From Acidimicrobiia bacterium (GTDB lineage Bacteria; Actinomycetota; Acidimicrobiia; Acidimicrobiales; Poriferisodalaceae): a stretch of 64,000 nt of DNA. The notes under the pieces are model-generated. The model saw nothing but the letters and a program-made list of their open reading frames with translations. It had not been told where the DNA came from and did no database searches. This document shows, piece after piece, positions 10,852 to 18,500 of this stretch. The stretch's first letter is position 1; every line of letters begins with the position of its first letter. Position numbers and translations under genes: made by a program. Where the stretch lies: NCBI GenBank assembly GCA_022820925.1, contig JAJEEO010000014.1:124001-188000 (forward strand), in the 5' to 3' direction.

Positions 10852-11343
10852 ATGAGCGGGGCTGACGACGAGACGAGCTGGGGAGCCTTTGCGGAGGCCA
10901 GCCCGGAACTGGCCGCACGCATCCAGAAGCGCTTCGAGAGCCACCTGCACGCGGTCATGGCAACGATCCGTGCCGACGGCGCCCCCCGGATGTCGGGCAT
11001 GGAGGCCCCGATCCGCGATGGCCATCTCTGGCTGGGGATGGACCGCAACTCGCGCAAGGCAGCCGATCTGCGGCGTGATTCGCGGTTCGGGCTGCACTCA
11101 GCGCCCGAGAGCGGCGAACTCAAGGCCGGCGATGCGCGCATCGAGGGCACGGCAGTGCCAGCCGACGCCGAACAGCTCGAGACGTTCATGCGCGGCCATC
11201 ATCACGAGATCGACGACGCGACCCCGATGGCCTTGTTCACCGTGGGAATCGCTCACGCCGTGCTTGTGCGGGTCGACGGTCAGCATCTCGTCGTCGAGAC
11301 CTGGACGCCGTCCGGCGGCTTGACCGAACGCCGCCTCAGCTAA
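10852..11343 (+). CDS. pyridoxamine 5'-phosphate oxidase-fold family protein
   Basis: This small flavin- or F420-binding split-barrel protein has 163 residues. ATG 10852 is chosen because GGAGG (10837-10841) precedes it; the longer frame from 10675 runs through the promoter region of the divergent lipoprotein gene. Family features are RFESHLHAVMATIRADGAPRMSG near the start, LWLGMDRNSRKAADLRRDSR (strand-turn-helix for cofactor phosphate), and a C-terminal HAVLVRVDGQHLVVETW strand. Many actinobacterial members bind F420 or FMN without known substrate. Its TAA shares bases with the stop of the convergent terC-family gene (CTAA at 11340-11343). Confidence 0.85.
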   Translation: MSGADDETSWGAFAEASPELAARIQKRFESHLHAVMATIRADGAPRMSGMEAPIRDGHLWLGMDRNSRKAADLRRDSRFGLHSAPESGELKAGDARIEGTAVPADAEQLETFMRGHHHEIDDATPMALFTVGIAHAVLVRVDGQHLVVETWTPSGGLTERRLS

Positions 11344-12158
11344 GGCGCCCCCGGCTCGTCGGCTGGTGCGTCGGCGCCGTCGCCGGCGTCATCAGCAGAG
11401 GCGAACGCGGGCAGGCGGCGCTCGTGGAACTCGACGGGCGGCGTGCGCGACTGACGATTGCGCTTCATCCGCAGGTTGAGCGCTTCCACCAGCACGGCGA
11501 AGCCCATGGCGAAGTAGATGTAGCCCTTGGGGATGTGGAACTCGGCGCCTTCGGCCACCAGCGACATGCCGATGAGCAGCAGGAACGCCAGCGCCAGCAT
11601 CTTCACCGTCGGGTGCTTGCCCACGAAGCGCATCACCGGGCCTGACGACCACAGCATCACGCCGACGGAAATGACCACCGCAGCGATCATCACGCCCACC
11701 CGGTCGGCCATGCCCACCGCGGTGATGACCGAGTCGAGGCTGAACACCAGGTCCAGCAGCAGGATCTGGATGATGACCCTGGCGAACGTGGCACCTGCCC
11801 GGTCGCCAGCGTCATCGTGGTCGTCGCCTTCCAGCTTGTGGTGGATCTCGAACGTGGCCTTGCCCAGCAGGAACAGCCCGCCGCCCAGCAGAATCAGATC
11901 TCGCCCCGATAGCTCGTGGCCGAACACCGAGAACAGCGGTGTCGTGAGCCGCACGATCCACGAAATGCCCAGCAGCAGGAGCACCCGCATGCCCATGGCC
12001 AGCGACAGGCCCACCACGCGGGCGCGCTCGGCTTCCTTGCCGCCCAGCCGTCCGGCCAGAATCGAGATGAAGATCACATTGTCGATGCCGAGCACGATCT
12101 CGAGCACCGTCAGCGTGACCAGCGAGATCCAGACCTCAGGATTCGCGACCCATTCCAC
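11340..12158 (-). CDS. TerC family integral membrane protein
   Basis: This is a 272-residue polytopic membrane protein with about seven hydrophobic helices. The TerC hallmark acidic motifs are present: GIDNVIFISIL in the first helix pair and DLVFSLDSVITAVGMADR in the middle. An acidic cytoplasmic loop (HHKLEGDDHDDAGD) separates the halves. Known relatives are linked to manganese or tellurite efflux and metal loading of exported proteins. That role is established for the family and only inferred here. The C-terminus after residue 230 is basic and then acidic, low-complexity, probably cytoplasmic. It overlaps the convergent flavin-fold gene by four bases. Confidence 0.92.
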   Translation of the reverse strand: MEWVANPEVWISLVTLTVLEIVLGIDNVIFISILAGRLGGKEAERARVVGLSLAMGMRVLLLLGISWIVRLTTPLFSVFGHELSGRDLILLGGGLFLLGKATFEIHHKLEGDDHDDAGDRAGATFARVIIQILLLDLVFSLDSVITAVGMADRVGVMIAAVVISVGVMLWSSGPVMRFVGKHPTVKMLALAFLLLIGMSLVAEGAEFHIPKGYIYFAMGFAVLVEALNLRMKRNRQSRTPPVEFHERRLPAFASADDAGDGADAPADEPGAP

Positions 12159-12247
12159 GAGCGCACACGCTAGAGCGAGCGCCCGACGCCGTCGCCGCTA
12201 CTCAGGGATCCCGACTCGATGCACCGGTCGACTCTTATCAAGCCCTG

Positions 12248-12290
12248 AACTACTAATTTGACATCAATTGTAAATCAATTGGTATATCAC
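12248..12290. repeat. 43-bp AT-rich direct repeat, copy 1 (downstream of fic)
   Basis: The sequence begins AACTACTAATTTGACATCAA and matches copy 2 at 13763-13805 at 41 of 43 positions; weaker similarity continues about 14 bases further. It contains two CAATTG palindromes (12265-12270 and 12276-12281) spaced 11 bp, one helical turn. It also has a TTGACA hexamer on the plus strand. Its base composition is far below that of the flanking genes. Confidence 0.9.
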
Positions 12291-12309
12291 ACATGTGATT
12301 CGCCTCGGT

Positions 12310-12331
12310 CAACTCAACCGGAACCGAGTTG
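12310..12331. terminator. possible hairpin after fic
   Basis: CAACTC (12310-12315) pairs with GAGTTG (12326-12331) across a 10-base loop, just past the fic stop. An alternative CTCGGT/ACCGAG pairing overlaps it. There is no strong U-tract, so it may be only a weak transcription stop. Confidence 0.3.
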
Positions 12332-12334
12332 CCG

Positions 12335-13708
12335 TCAGTCTTCAGACTTGCCAAGGCCACGAATGCGATCGACTAAGTCAGGCACGGGCAGGAATCGGTA
12401 CGACTTGCCGTCGCGCCGCATGGCCAGGAGGCCGAGCGCGGCAAGTCCGAGCAGATCGGTTCGAGCCGTCTGGTAAGTGACGGAATGTTTCCGTTGATGT
12501 CCTGCGATCAGAAAATCGGCGTTGGCATCGCGCAGCGCCGTCGCCAGCACGGAACGCTGTCGGTGGTTGACTTCGGCTCTCCCGGCGAGCATCTCTTCGA
12601 CCTCGCGGACTTCTTCTCGCTTGGCTTGCAGATACGCGCGGAGCTCGTCGATTGCACGTTCAATGATGTCGAGCTGGTACAGCACGAAGTGCGTGAGGTC
12701 GTTGCTGTCAGTCTCCGTGTAGAGGAATGACCGCGCGTACTTGGCTGGCGCCAGGCGCAGGATCGAGGAGACCGTGAGAAACTCGGCGAGCCAGTACTTC
12801 GAGCGCAACATCGACCAGTAGAAGAGCGAACGAGCTAGTCGACCGTTTCCATCGACGAAGGGATGGTCGTAGGCAAGCCAGAAGTGCAGAGCGATGGCGC
12901 GCACGACTGGATGCACAAATCCGTTATCCGACTCGCCGTTGGCGAATGCACACATTGCCTCCATTCGCCCAGGCAATTCGCTTGCGCGAGGCGGAGTATG
13001 CAGTCGCTGCTCATCGTGCGAGCCGTCGGGCCATGACACCCAGACGCGAGTCTCGTCCTCTCTCTGGATACGACCTGCGTCTGCCGGATCGTCTATGGCG
13101 TCCACGACAAGAACGCGGTGCAATTCACAGATCGTCTCGGTCGTCAGGGGCAGCTCGTCCCGGGCCAGATCACGCACTCGGGAAATCGCTCGATAGTTGT
13201 TGAGAATCATCTGCTCGCTGCGATCACGGGGCGGACGGTCGGTGAGCAGCATTCGCTTCGCCTCAGAGCGAGTCGAACTGGCTCCCTCGAGTTGACTCGA
13301 AGCGATCGCTTCCTCGATGAGCGAGCTGACGATGTACCGGTCTCGATTCCCAGCGGCTACAGAAGGCTCATCTGCCAGCACATCTCCTGCCGCGGCCTGA
13401 TCTATGCGGTGCAACGACTCCCAAACGGCGTCGACCATGCAGATGCCAAACCGAGTTCCATCGACACCCGTGAGAGGCATGAGTCGCCAGAGCGCACGCC
13501 GGCTCAGCCACGTACTCAGCCACCAGTCTTCGTGCGTGAGTCCGTCAGGCGGCTTACTGCGGCGCATTTCGTCCCAGTGGAGGTAACGGCCTTTGGCGTC
13601 TGTGGGCCTGCCTTGCTCCACGATCCGGTGAAATCCGTCCGCCCTGCCATCTGCCAGAACCTCTTCCAGCAGTGCGTCTGCAGCGGGAGGTGTCTGTGGG
13701 ATCTTCAC
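12335..13708 (-). CDS. Fic family protein (probable AMPylase)
   Basis: This is a 457-residue Fic/DOC-fold enzyme predicted to transfer AMP or another phosphate-containing group from a nucleotide to a protein hydroxyl. The complete catalytic loop HPFVDGNGRLAR is present, with His as base, acidic metal ligand and phosphate-binding Arg. SSQLEG in the N-terminal third matches the (S/T)xxxE(G/N) inhibitory helix of class II Fic proteins. The start GTG 13708 gives VKIPQTPP, the usual N-terminus of the family; a TTG 14 codons upstream is less likely. The C-terminal HQRKHSVTYQTARTDLLGLA looks like a winged helix, often present in Fic regulators. The gene stands alone between two 43-bp direct repeats, with no antitoxin partner. 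Confidence 0.92.
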   Translation of the reverse strand: MKIPQTPPAADALLEEVLADGRADGFHRIVEQGRPTDAKGRYLHWDEMRRSKPPDGLTHEDWWLSTWLSRRALWRLMPLTGVDGTRFGICMVDAVWESLHRIDQAAAGDVLADEPSVAAGNRDRYIVSSLIEEAIASSQLEGASSTRSEAKRMLLTDRPPRDRSEQMILNNYRAISRVRDLARDELPLTTETICELHRVLVVDAIDDPADAGRIQREDETRVWVSWPDGSHDEQRLHTPPRASELPGRMEAMCAFANGESDNGFVHPVVRAIALHFWLAYDHPFVDGNGRLARSLFYWSMLRSKYWLAEFLTVSSILRLAPAKYARSFLYTETDSNDLTHFVLYQLDIIERAIDELRAYLQAKREEVREVEEMLAGRAEVNHRQRSVLATALRDANADFLIAGHQRKHSVTYQTARTDLLGLAALGLLAMRRDGKSYRFLPVPDLVDRIRGLGKSED

Positions 13709-13762
13709 GGCGCGGCTTTCGTCGGGACAAGAATGGCAGCATCGACGCAATGCGGATGAGCC

Positions 13763-13805
13763 AACTACTAATTTGACATCAATTGTAACTCAATTGGTAT
13801 GTCAC
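13763..13805. repeat. 43-bp AT-rich direct repeat, copy 2 (upstream of fic)
   Basis: This is the second copy of the element at 12248-12290, 1515 bp away in the same orientation. The CAATTG pair is at 13780-13785 and 13791-13796. It lies 54 bases upstream of the fic start codon, where the fic promoter should be, so it may double as an operator. Read on the minus strand, TTGAGT and TAGTAG are separated by 17 bases, a weak promoter candidate. Confidence 0.9.
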
Positions 13806-13866
13806 GCGTGTAGTTCGGCGGGCTGGGCAACGCTTGAGCTGTGGCTGATCCGACGGCGCGTCGCGC

Positions 13867-14757
13867 TCAGCGAGTGTCGTCAGCGTGGTTGGAGTACGCG
13901 GCCCACCAGGCGTCGAGGCGGCGGCGCACCTCGGCGTCGCCGAGCTCGCCTTCGGCGCGGCGCAGCTCCAGCAGGAACTTCATGGCCCGGCCGACCTCGG
14001 GGCCGGGCGACAGCCCCAGGCGGGCCATCACTTCGTCGCCGTTCATCTCGGGGCGCAATTCCTTGTGAGCCTGCTCGCGGGCCAGCCGGGCGATGCGCAC
14101 CTCGAAGCGGTCGAGCGCGTCGTGCAAGGCCTCGATCCGCTGCACGTTGCGCGACGTGCAGTCGCTGCGCACCATGTCGTTCAGATCGCCCAGCAGGGGC
14201 CCGGCGTCGCGGGCATAGCGCCGCACCGCCGCATCGGTCCAGCCGGTGTCATAGCCCTTGAAGCGACCCGACAGGTGCACCAGCCGCGACACCTCCTCAG
14301 TCAGTTCGCGGCTATAGCCCATCTGGGGCATGCGGCGGCGGGTCATCTTGGCCCCGACGGCCTCGTGGTTGCGGAACGTCACCCCGCTGTGGGTGATCTC
14401 GCGGGTCAGCGGCTTGCCGATGTCGTGGAAGAGCGCCCCCAGCCGTACCCGTAGCCGGGGCGGGCTCTGGGCCACGACGGCGATCGTGTGCGCCAGCACG
14501 TCCTTGTGGCGATGGATCGGGTCCTGCTCCAGCGCCAGCGCCGGCAGCTCGGGCAGATGCTCGTCTGCCCAGCCGCTGTCGACCAGCTCCCACAGGCCTT
14601 GGCGCGGGTCGTCGACCACCAGCACGCTGTTCAGCTCGTCGCAGGGCAGCACGGCGCCGGCGTCGAGCTCCAGCTCGTCGACATCGGCGCCATCGTGCGC
14701 GCTGTGTGCGCTGTCGGGCGCGCGCTGCGGGGTGGTCATGCCCCCATGATGCAGCAC
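13867..14757 (-). CDS. HD domain protein related to the C-terminal half of CCA-adding enzymes
   Basis: This predicted metal-dependent phosphohydrolase has 296 residues. The start GTG 14757 has GGAGGG nine bases upstream. The HD signature is complete: HRHKDVLAHT, GALFHDIGKP and FRNHEAVGAK. The following helices (AVRRYARDAGPLLGDL, VRSDCTSRN, RIARLAREQ, LRPEMNGDEVM) closely resemble the post-HD part of actinobacterial PcnA-type tRNA nucleotidyltransferases. There is no nucleotidyltransferase (GGxVRD) domain, so it cannot add CCA by itself. Probable roles are 2',3'-cyclic phosphate or nucleotide hydrolysis; this is inference. It lies divergently from dnaE. Confidence 0.85.
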   Translation of the reverse strand: MLHHGGMTTPQRAPDSAHSAHDGADVDELELDAGAVLPCDELNSVLVVDDPRQGLWELVDSGWADEHLPELPALALEQDPIHRHKDVLAHTIAVVAQSPPRLRVRLGALFHDIGKPLTREITHSGVTFRNHEAVGAKMTRRRMPQMGYSRELTEEVSRLVHLSGRFKGYDTGWTDAAVRRYARDAGPLLGDLNDMVRSDCTSRNVQRIEALHDALDRFEVRIARLAREQAHKELRPEMNGDEVMARLGLSPGPEVGRAMKFLLELRRAEGELGDAEVRRRLDAWWAAYSNHADDTR

Positions 14758-14939
14758 TGCGGACGGCCCTCCAACCGAGATTTCTGGGATTTCCTGCGGC
14801 GCACGCCGCGTGTCGGCTGCGGGTTCGCGCCGCGTCGAGGCGGCGGGTCTATGTTCGACAGACGGGCCGAATCGGGCCGTGAGCGAGACAGCCCGTCAGC
14901 ACACCAACCCGCCGACACATCCCCAAGGAGCAGCGCAGC

Positions 14940-18500
<3,561 letters not shown>

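Follow-up and report, generated by a model that had tools for sequence, protein, structure and literature searches.

Why should a single fic gene in GC-rich Acidimicrobiia DNA lie between two AT-rich direct repeats? A preliminary description of the window (the whole 64,000-nucleotide stretch analysed here) had left two options, attachment-like ends of a small cassette or paired operators forming a loop around the gene. Our comparisons favour paired operators, with a loop as one possible use of them, since the site always stands beside fic and tracks the recognition helix of the Fic protein; attachment-like ends are weakened because many relatives have the upstream site alone. The repeats are most likely operators rather than attachment sites, and we put at roughly 75% the probability that they serve the enclosed Fic, an oligomer of which would repress its own gene through the upstream copy and have a further predicted binding site in the second. 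The bracketed fic is probably a self-controlled, exchangeable one-gene cassette.

The repeat pair itself was borne out as described: the copies agree at 41 of 43 bases over the core, lie 1515 bp apart from start to start, and each hold two CAATTG and one TTGACA. Their similarity runs about 12 bases beyond this core and amounts to 89% identity over 55 bp (Table 1). The AT contrast also held: G+C content is 0.291 and 0.364 in the two copies, whereas fic has 0.607 and the window 0.685. A 34-base pattern of the repeat, allowing up to three mismatches, matched twice in the window and never in 100 shuffles, and a 21-base pattern at the same tolerance found only the two window copies in the own genome (3.28 Mb in 19 contigs; reversed control, 0). 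Inside each repeat lies an AT-rich dyad, TACTAAT-N9-ATTAGTA, which takes the form TTACAAT-TGATGTCAA-ATTAGTA in the window; read in gene direction, the copy upstream of fic is an imperfect palindrome of ~54 bp, GAACTAC...TACCAAT...TTACAAT-N9-ATTAGTAGTT(C). As had been claimed, of the frames enclosed by the copies only fic is recognised as a gene (by its Pfam Fic match), and no recombinase gene lies there. A sigma-70 consensus scan returned no promoter at the upstream copy or near either repeat, no intrinsic terminator was predicted after fic (the single terminator-like match is on the plus strand, inside fic), and no RNA family matched positions 11000-15000 at the Rfam gathering score.

Table 1 Features of the fic locus (positions in the window)
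Feature	Position	Strand	Remarks
TerC-family gene	11340..12158	-	One flank of the slot that holds fic; codirectional with fic
Downstream repeat copy	12248..12302	-	Between fic and terC, past the stop codon of fic; minus-strand dyad core, TTACAAT-N9-ATTAGTA, at 12251-12273
fic	12335..13708	-	GTG start at 13708; in-frame TTG at 13750 as alternative start; Fic domain PF02661, SoFic-like by PADLOC
C-terminal winged-helix domain	12356..12565	-	Residues 382-451, AlphaFold2 model; recognition helix (residues 412-424) at 12437-12475
Catalytic Fic motif HPFVDGNGR	12839..12865	-	Fits HPFx[D/E]GNGR
Inhibitory-helix-type motif SSQLEG	13283..13300	-	Residues 137-142, on the N-terminal side of the Fic motif; class II layout
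Upstream repeat copy	13763..13817	-	Precedes the start codon of fic; minus-strand dyad core at 13766-13788; predicted fic operator
HD-domain gene	13867..14739	-	Other flank of the slot; codirectional with fic

The enclosed protein scores 64 bits against the Pfam Fic family (curated cut-off 24) and resembles SoFic, a PADLOC defence family, both in the PADLOC match (E 7e-40) and in fold. Its AlphaFold2 model (mean pLDDT 86.9, 33 sequences) has a predicted winged helix at the C-terminal end, and the best fold match is SoFic, PDB 3eqx (18% identity; TM-score 0.57/0.69), which was deposited under the molecule name "Fic domain containing transcriptional regulator". The structure of Coxiella CbFic2 (8cil) is also among the fold matches. 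In class II Fic proteins an inhibitory motif [S/T]xxxE[G/N] stands N-terminal to the Fic motif, the layout listed in Table 1. No adjacent antitoxin gene, of the kind by which a type II toxin-antitoxin system is recognised, occurs within the repeat-bounded unit, where fic is the sole recognised gene.

Relatives of this fic at ~45-55% identity are present in 26 of 395 genomes of the class (E<=1e-40). Across Acidimicrobiia and some other actinobacterial families, the dyad stands directly upstream of fic at 36 of 49 loci (L070, L079, L082 and L083 left out), compared to 1.04 expected from dinucleotide shuffles. At 29 loci, mostly of ~4 kb, all dyad matches of at least 11/14 are close to the gene, no farther than 140 bp on its upstream side or 80 bp on its downstream side. 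A search of the 395 class genomes with a 23-base dyad pattern (up to three mismatches; reversed control, 0) gave six sites in four genomes, every one of which adjoins fic: two each in the window's genome and G301, flanking the gene, one upstream in G369, and one in G403, ahead of a fic gene whose start is truncated by the end of the contig. The upstream dyad was found again at 10 of 12 held-out loci from a later order search by strict scan, the exceptions being L105, whose dyad has a longer spacer, and L103, without a dyad at the threshold. The dyad also provides a sequence signature for this ~50%-identical fic subfamily. Several loci carry the upstream site with no downstream counterpart (e.g., L045-L047, L050, L053, L054, L059, and L063).

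Two peculiarities of these upstream regions may be recorded. At L050, L052, L059, and L070, the upstream dyad is followed by another shared stretch near TGTAGTTCGCGA; in the first three loci it lies close to the start codon. This stretch is similar to the outer arm of the repeat in the window (GAACTACA reversed). The L060 contig (G184:C123) terminates in an exact 234-bp repeat of the region immediately upstream of fic, running from inside the fic frame; this is either a real duplication or an assembly overlap.

Site sequence goes together with the predicted recognition helix. Loci bearing the dyad encode the helix YQTAR or close forms, and loci with YPTAH or YPTSH (L051, L055-L058) have CTATAG-AAT-CTATAG, or a sequence near it, as the upstream site. 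In a scripted count, for which L079 and L070 had no readable motif, the dyad was present at 19 of 21 loci with a Q..R helix compared to 2 of 12 with other helices (p = 4e-5, a value that overstates independence because helix and site types cluster as clades). Six further Q..R loci whose helices the regular expression missed (L022, L045-L048, L066) were read separately, and all six have the dyad. The two Q..R loci without a dyad at the threshold are L049 and L083, the latter a truncated gene; the dyad loci with another helix are L041 (YLSAR, with TTATAAT-N9-ATTATAA as its site) and L081, whose AT-rich match stands at the threshold. Genome G341 holds two fic genes, one per helix type, each with its matching site (L058, L066). 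A locus from outside the class, L080, combines the helix YGTAR with a different motif, CTATCA...TGATAG, on both sides of fic. Such matched pairs of Fic and predicted operator, spanning several helix types and in one case sharing a genome, lend themselves to direct tests of DNA recognition by Fic winged helices.

The dyad recurs downstream of fic at 17 of 47 loci, compared to 0.32 expected and 0 of 47 in a control window 300 bp further on (L060 and L077 lacked enough downstream sequence). These comprise all three fic loci of the window's genus, all nine of genus g58, and L042, L061, L062, L064, and L066; for L109 the gene end was set by hand because the frame runs on. It is absent, for instance, from the g46 loci L045-L047 and L104. 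The downstream copies of L042, L048, L061, L100, L101, and L106 match the dyad at 14 of 14 positions. In L061, L064 (which has two downstream copies), L100, L102, and L105, the site starts no more than five bases from the stop codon, and in L101 and L106 it overlaps the stop codon. On the fic tree, computed without L060, L070, L078, L079, L082, and L083, the both-sides label needs at least five changes on well-supported branches (L080 counted as both). Upstream and downstream copies fit direct repeats better than inverted ones in 10 of 12 pairs compared and also in L100, L102, and L105; L042 and L062 gave no clear orientation, L101 and L106 hardly any or none. Plain binding to a palindrome leaves this shared orientation unaccounted for. 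In L042, L043, L044, L048, L061, and L064, fic and the best-scoring next frame converge, so that the downstream site is not an operator of the neighbour's promoter there; terC in the window, unlike these neighbours, is codirectional with fic. A second, downstream operator would appear to be a recurring feature of solo fic genes.

In the window's genus (11 genomes), fic occurs with both copies in three, and its slot is the space between the HD-domain gene and terC. G003 looks as a cassette model would lead one to expect: it lacks fic and has a single, decayed copy with an HD-side left flank and a terC-side right flank, which is what deletion between the repeats would leave. Other slots without fic show no copy: G001 has vapBC in the slot with neither repeat copy nor fic, G002, G004, G005, G009, and G010 have none of the three, and in G431 the slot occupied by fic in its g58 relatives is empty with no site remaining (in G008, the HD/terC slot was not seen). 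No fic-less relative had both copies, the finding named beforehand as one that would refute the interpretation.

Exchange of the gene is indicated by identities that differ from those of its surroundings. Between G000 and G007, identity is 97.2% in fic (third positions, 94.8%), 91.9% in TerC (84.2%), and 86.0% in HD (74.9%), and a tree of the HD gene, weakly resolved as it is built on one gene, does not group the two genomes. Between G000 and G006:C98, fic is only 71.8% identical (third positions, 43.9%), compared to 89% and 96% for the repeats and 92.2% for TerC. Taken together, these identities indicate that fic moved between lineages and was replaced between conserved sites. Ordinary homologous recombination would explain exchange across the repeats without a dedicated recombinase.

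Three other explanations of the pair deserve weighing. If the repeats were attachment-like ends at which a recombinase supplied in trans cuts and joins the DNA, one would understand their direct orientation in the pairs that allow a call (10 of 12 pairs; L100, L102, L105), their long imperfect palindromes, the single copy without fic in G003, and the movement and swapping of fic between copies. Such ends should stand on both sides of the gene, but many relatives have the upstream site alone, the site sequence follows the recognition helix of Fic, G431 and most congeners have an empty slot without any copy, the copy in G003 is decayed, and no recombinase gene lies between the copies; we give this explanation very little credence. 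Integron attC cassettes invite comparison, as they consist of a single gene with imperfect palindromes in direct orientation and have toxin-type cargo. The fic unit likewise has a single gene beside direct-oriented imperfect palindromes; unlike integron sites, however, this type of site is tied to one gene family and is often present only upstream. Moreover, the attC core box is GTTRRRY, to which the terC-side copy (GTTCAGG, GTTCATG; judged by eye) does not conform, and we rejected this candidate. A composite transposon or IS was discarded given that the repeats are direct and enclose fic alone. Plasmid and phage origins were likewise set aside, as the 18 plasmid and 2 phage records all fall below 60% identity, and so was a virus origin, no viral contig having been confirmed. 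Among plasmids, Vibrio NZ_CP071844.1 (L084) has a 36%-identical fic behind a HigBA-type pair, with a GC-rich hairpin and T run after fic, where the Acidimicrobiia genes carry the downstream dyad.

The two remaining explanations accept operators and differ in how many function or in what binds them. The upstream copy could be the sole working operator and the downstream copy a leftover, such as one from a tandem duplication whose second gene has disappeared. The shared orientation of the copies, the several lineages without a downstream copy, and the two downstream copies of L064 would suit such a history. We nevertheless consider it unlikely: the six perfect downstream matches named above (14/14), the presence of the copy at every one of the nine fic loci in genus g58, and its overlap with the stop codon in L101 and L106 all speak against a remnant, and the downstream copies of the window and L042 share AATCACA...GTGA[AT]ATACCAAT despite a protein identity of only ~51%. 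That a host regulator other than Fic binds the operators seems distinctly improbable. Room for it exists insofar as Fic is a predicted binder, but the sites are found beside fic only (two in the own genome; 6 of 6 matches in the class sample) and change with the Fic recognition helix, even within genome G341.

Returning to the preferred reading, autoregulation by Fic, we infer how the protein binds and represses and what the downstream copy does. At the upstream copy, close to the presumed fic promoter, a Fic oligomer would bind and repress its own gene. The downstream copy, in the same orientation shortly past the stop codon, would offer a second Fic binding site, most likely serving either as a roadblock where the unit ends or as a partner of the upstream site in a loop. 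The repeat pair also marks a unit that has undergone loss, swapping, and transfer between lineages. More tentatively, one may picture composite operators at both ends that let bound Fic silence and insulate (or loop) its own gene, with the operator pair travelling with the gene as an exchange boundary. The result would be a self-regulated, swappable one-gene toxin or defence cassette, in an arrangement gained or lost several times. The matched pairs and the recurrent downstream site have a bearing on two questions, how an AMPylating enzyme that lacks a separate antitoxin gene is restrained and how it spreads.

The closest precedent comes from Yersinia pseudotuberculosis, whose Fic protein CccR carries a C-terminal HTH and represses its own gene via AGATAATCAT-N26-ATGATAATCT, as established by footprint and mutation; its inhibitory motif is S59ARIEG, and it is a secreted T6SS effector (PMC9755527). 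The window Fic is similar in having an inhibitory motif, a predicted C-terminal HTH, and a long palindrome upstream of its own gene. The half-sites differ from those of CccR, and a second full copy follows fic, whereas the portion of the CccR paper considered here names no second site after the gene. By analogy, the window case would fit the mode of action described there for CccR, with the bracket of two sites as what differs. Coxiella CbFic2, a Fic enzyme with an HTH, also binds DNA; the part of that report used here describes assays on random DNA only and no own-gene operator (PMC10628234). A class II Fic system is active against phage T5, according to the section drawn on here (PMC11514479). 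The titles and abstract beginnings examined yielded nothing on operators on both sides of a fic gene, which is weak evidence of absence.

The slots themselves showed some further variation. The HD/terC slot also takes a vapBC-like pair, a SpoVT/AbrB-type and a PIN-type frame named by eye (L011 in G003, L015 in G001, and L023 in G006:C98). In G006:C98, vapC has an internal deletion and adjoins the fic unit, vapBC being a separate pair. This G006 MAG holds two versions of the slot (C98 and C107); vapBC and fic occupy one and the other is empty, which may reflect a strain mixture. At L043 (G371), a 19-bp piece of the 3' end of the convergent gene is repeated (18/19) outside both operators, at 1360-1400 and ~2960-2990; its interpretation as a target duplication was rejected, as G369 and G301 have the same slot without the far copy.
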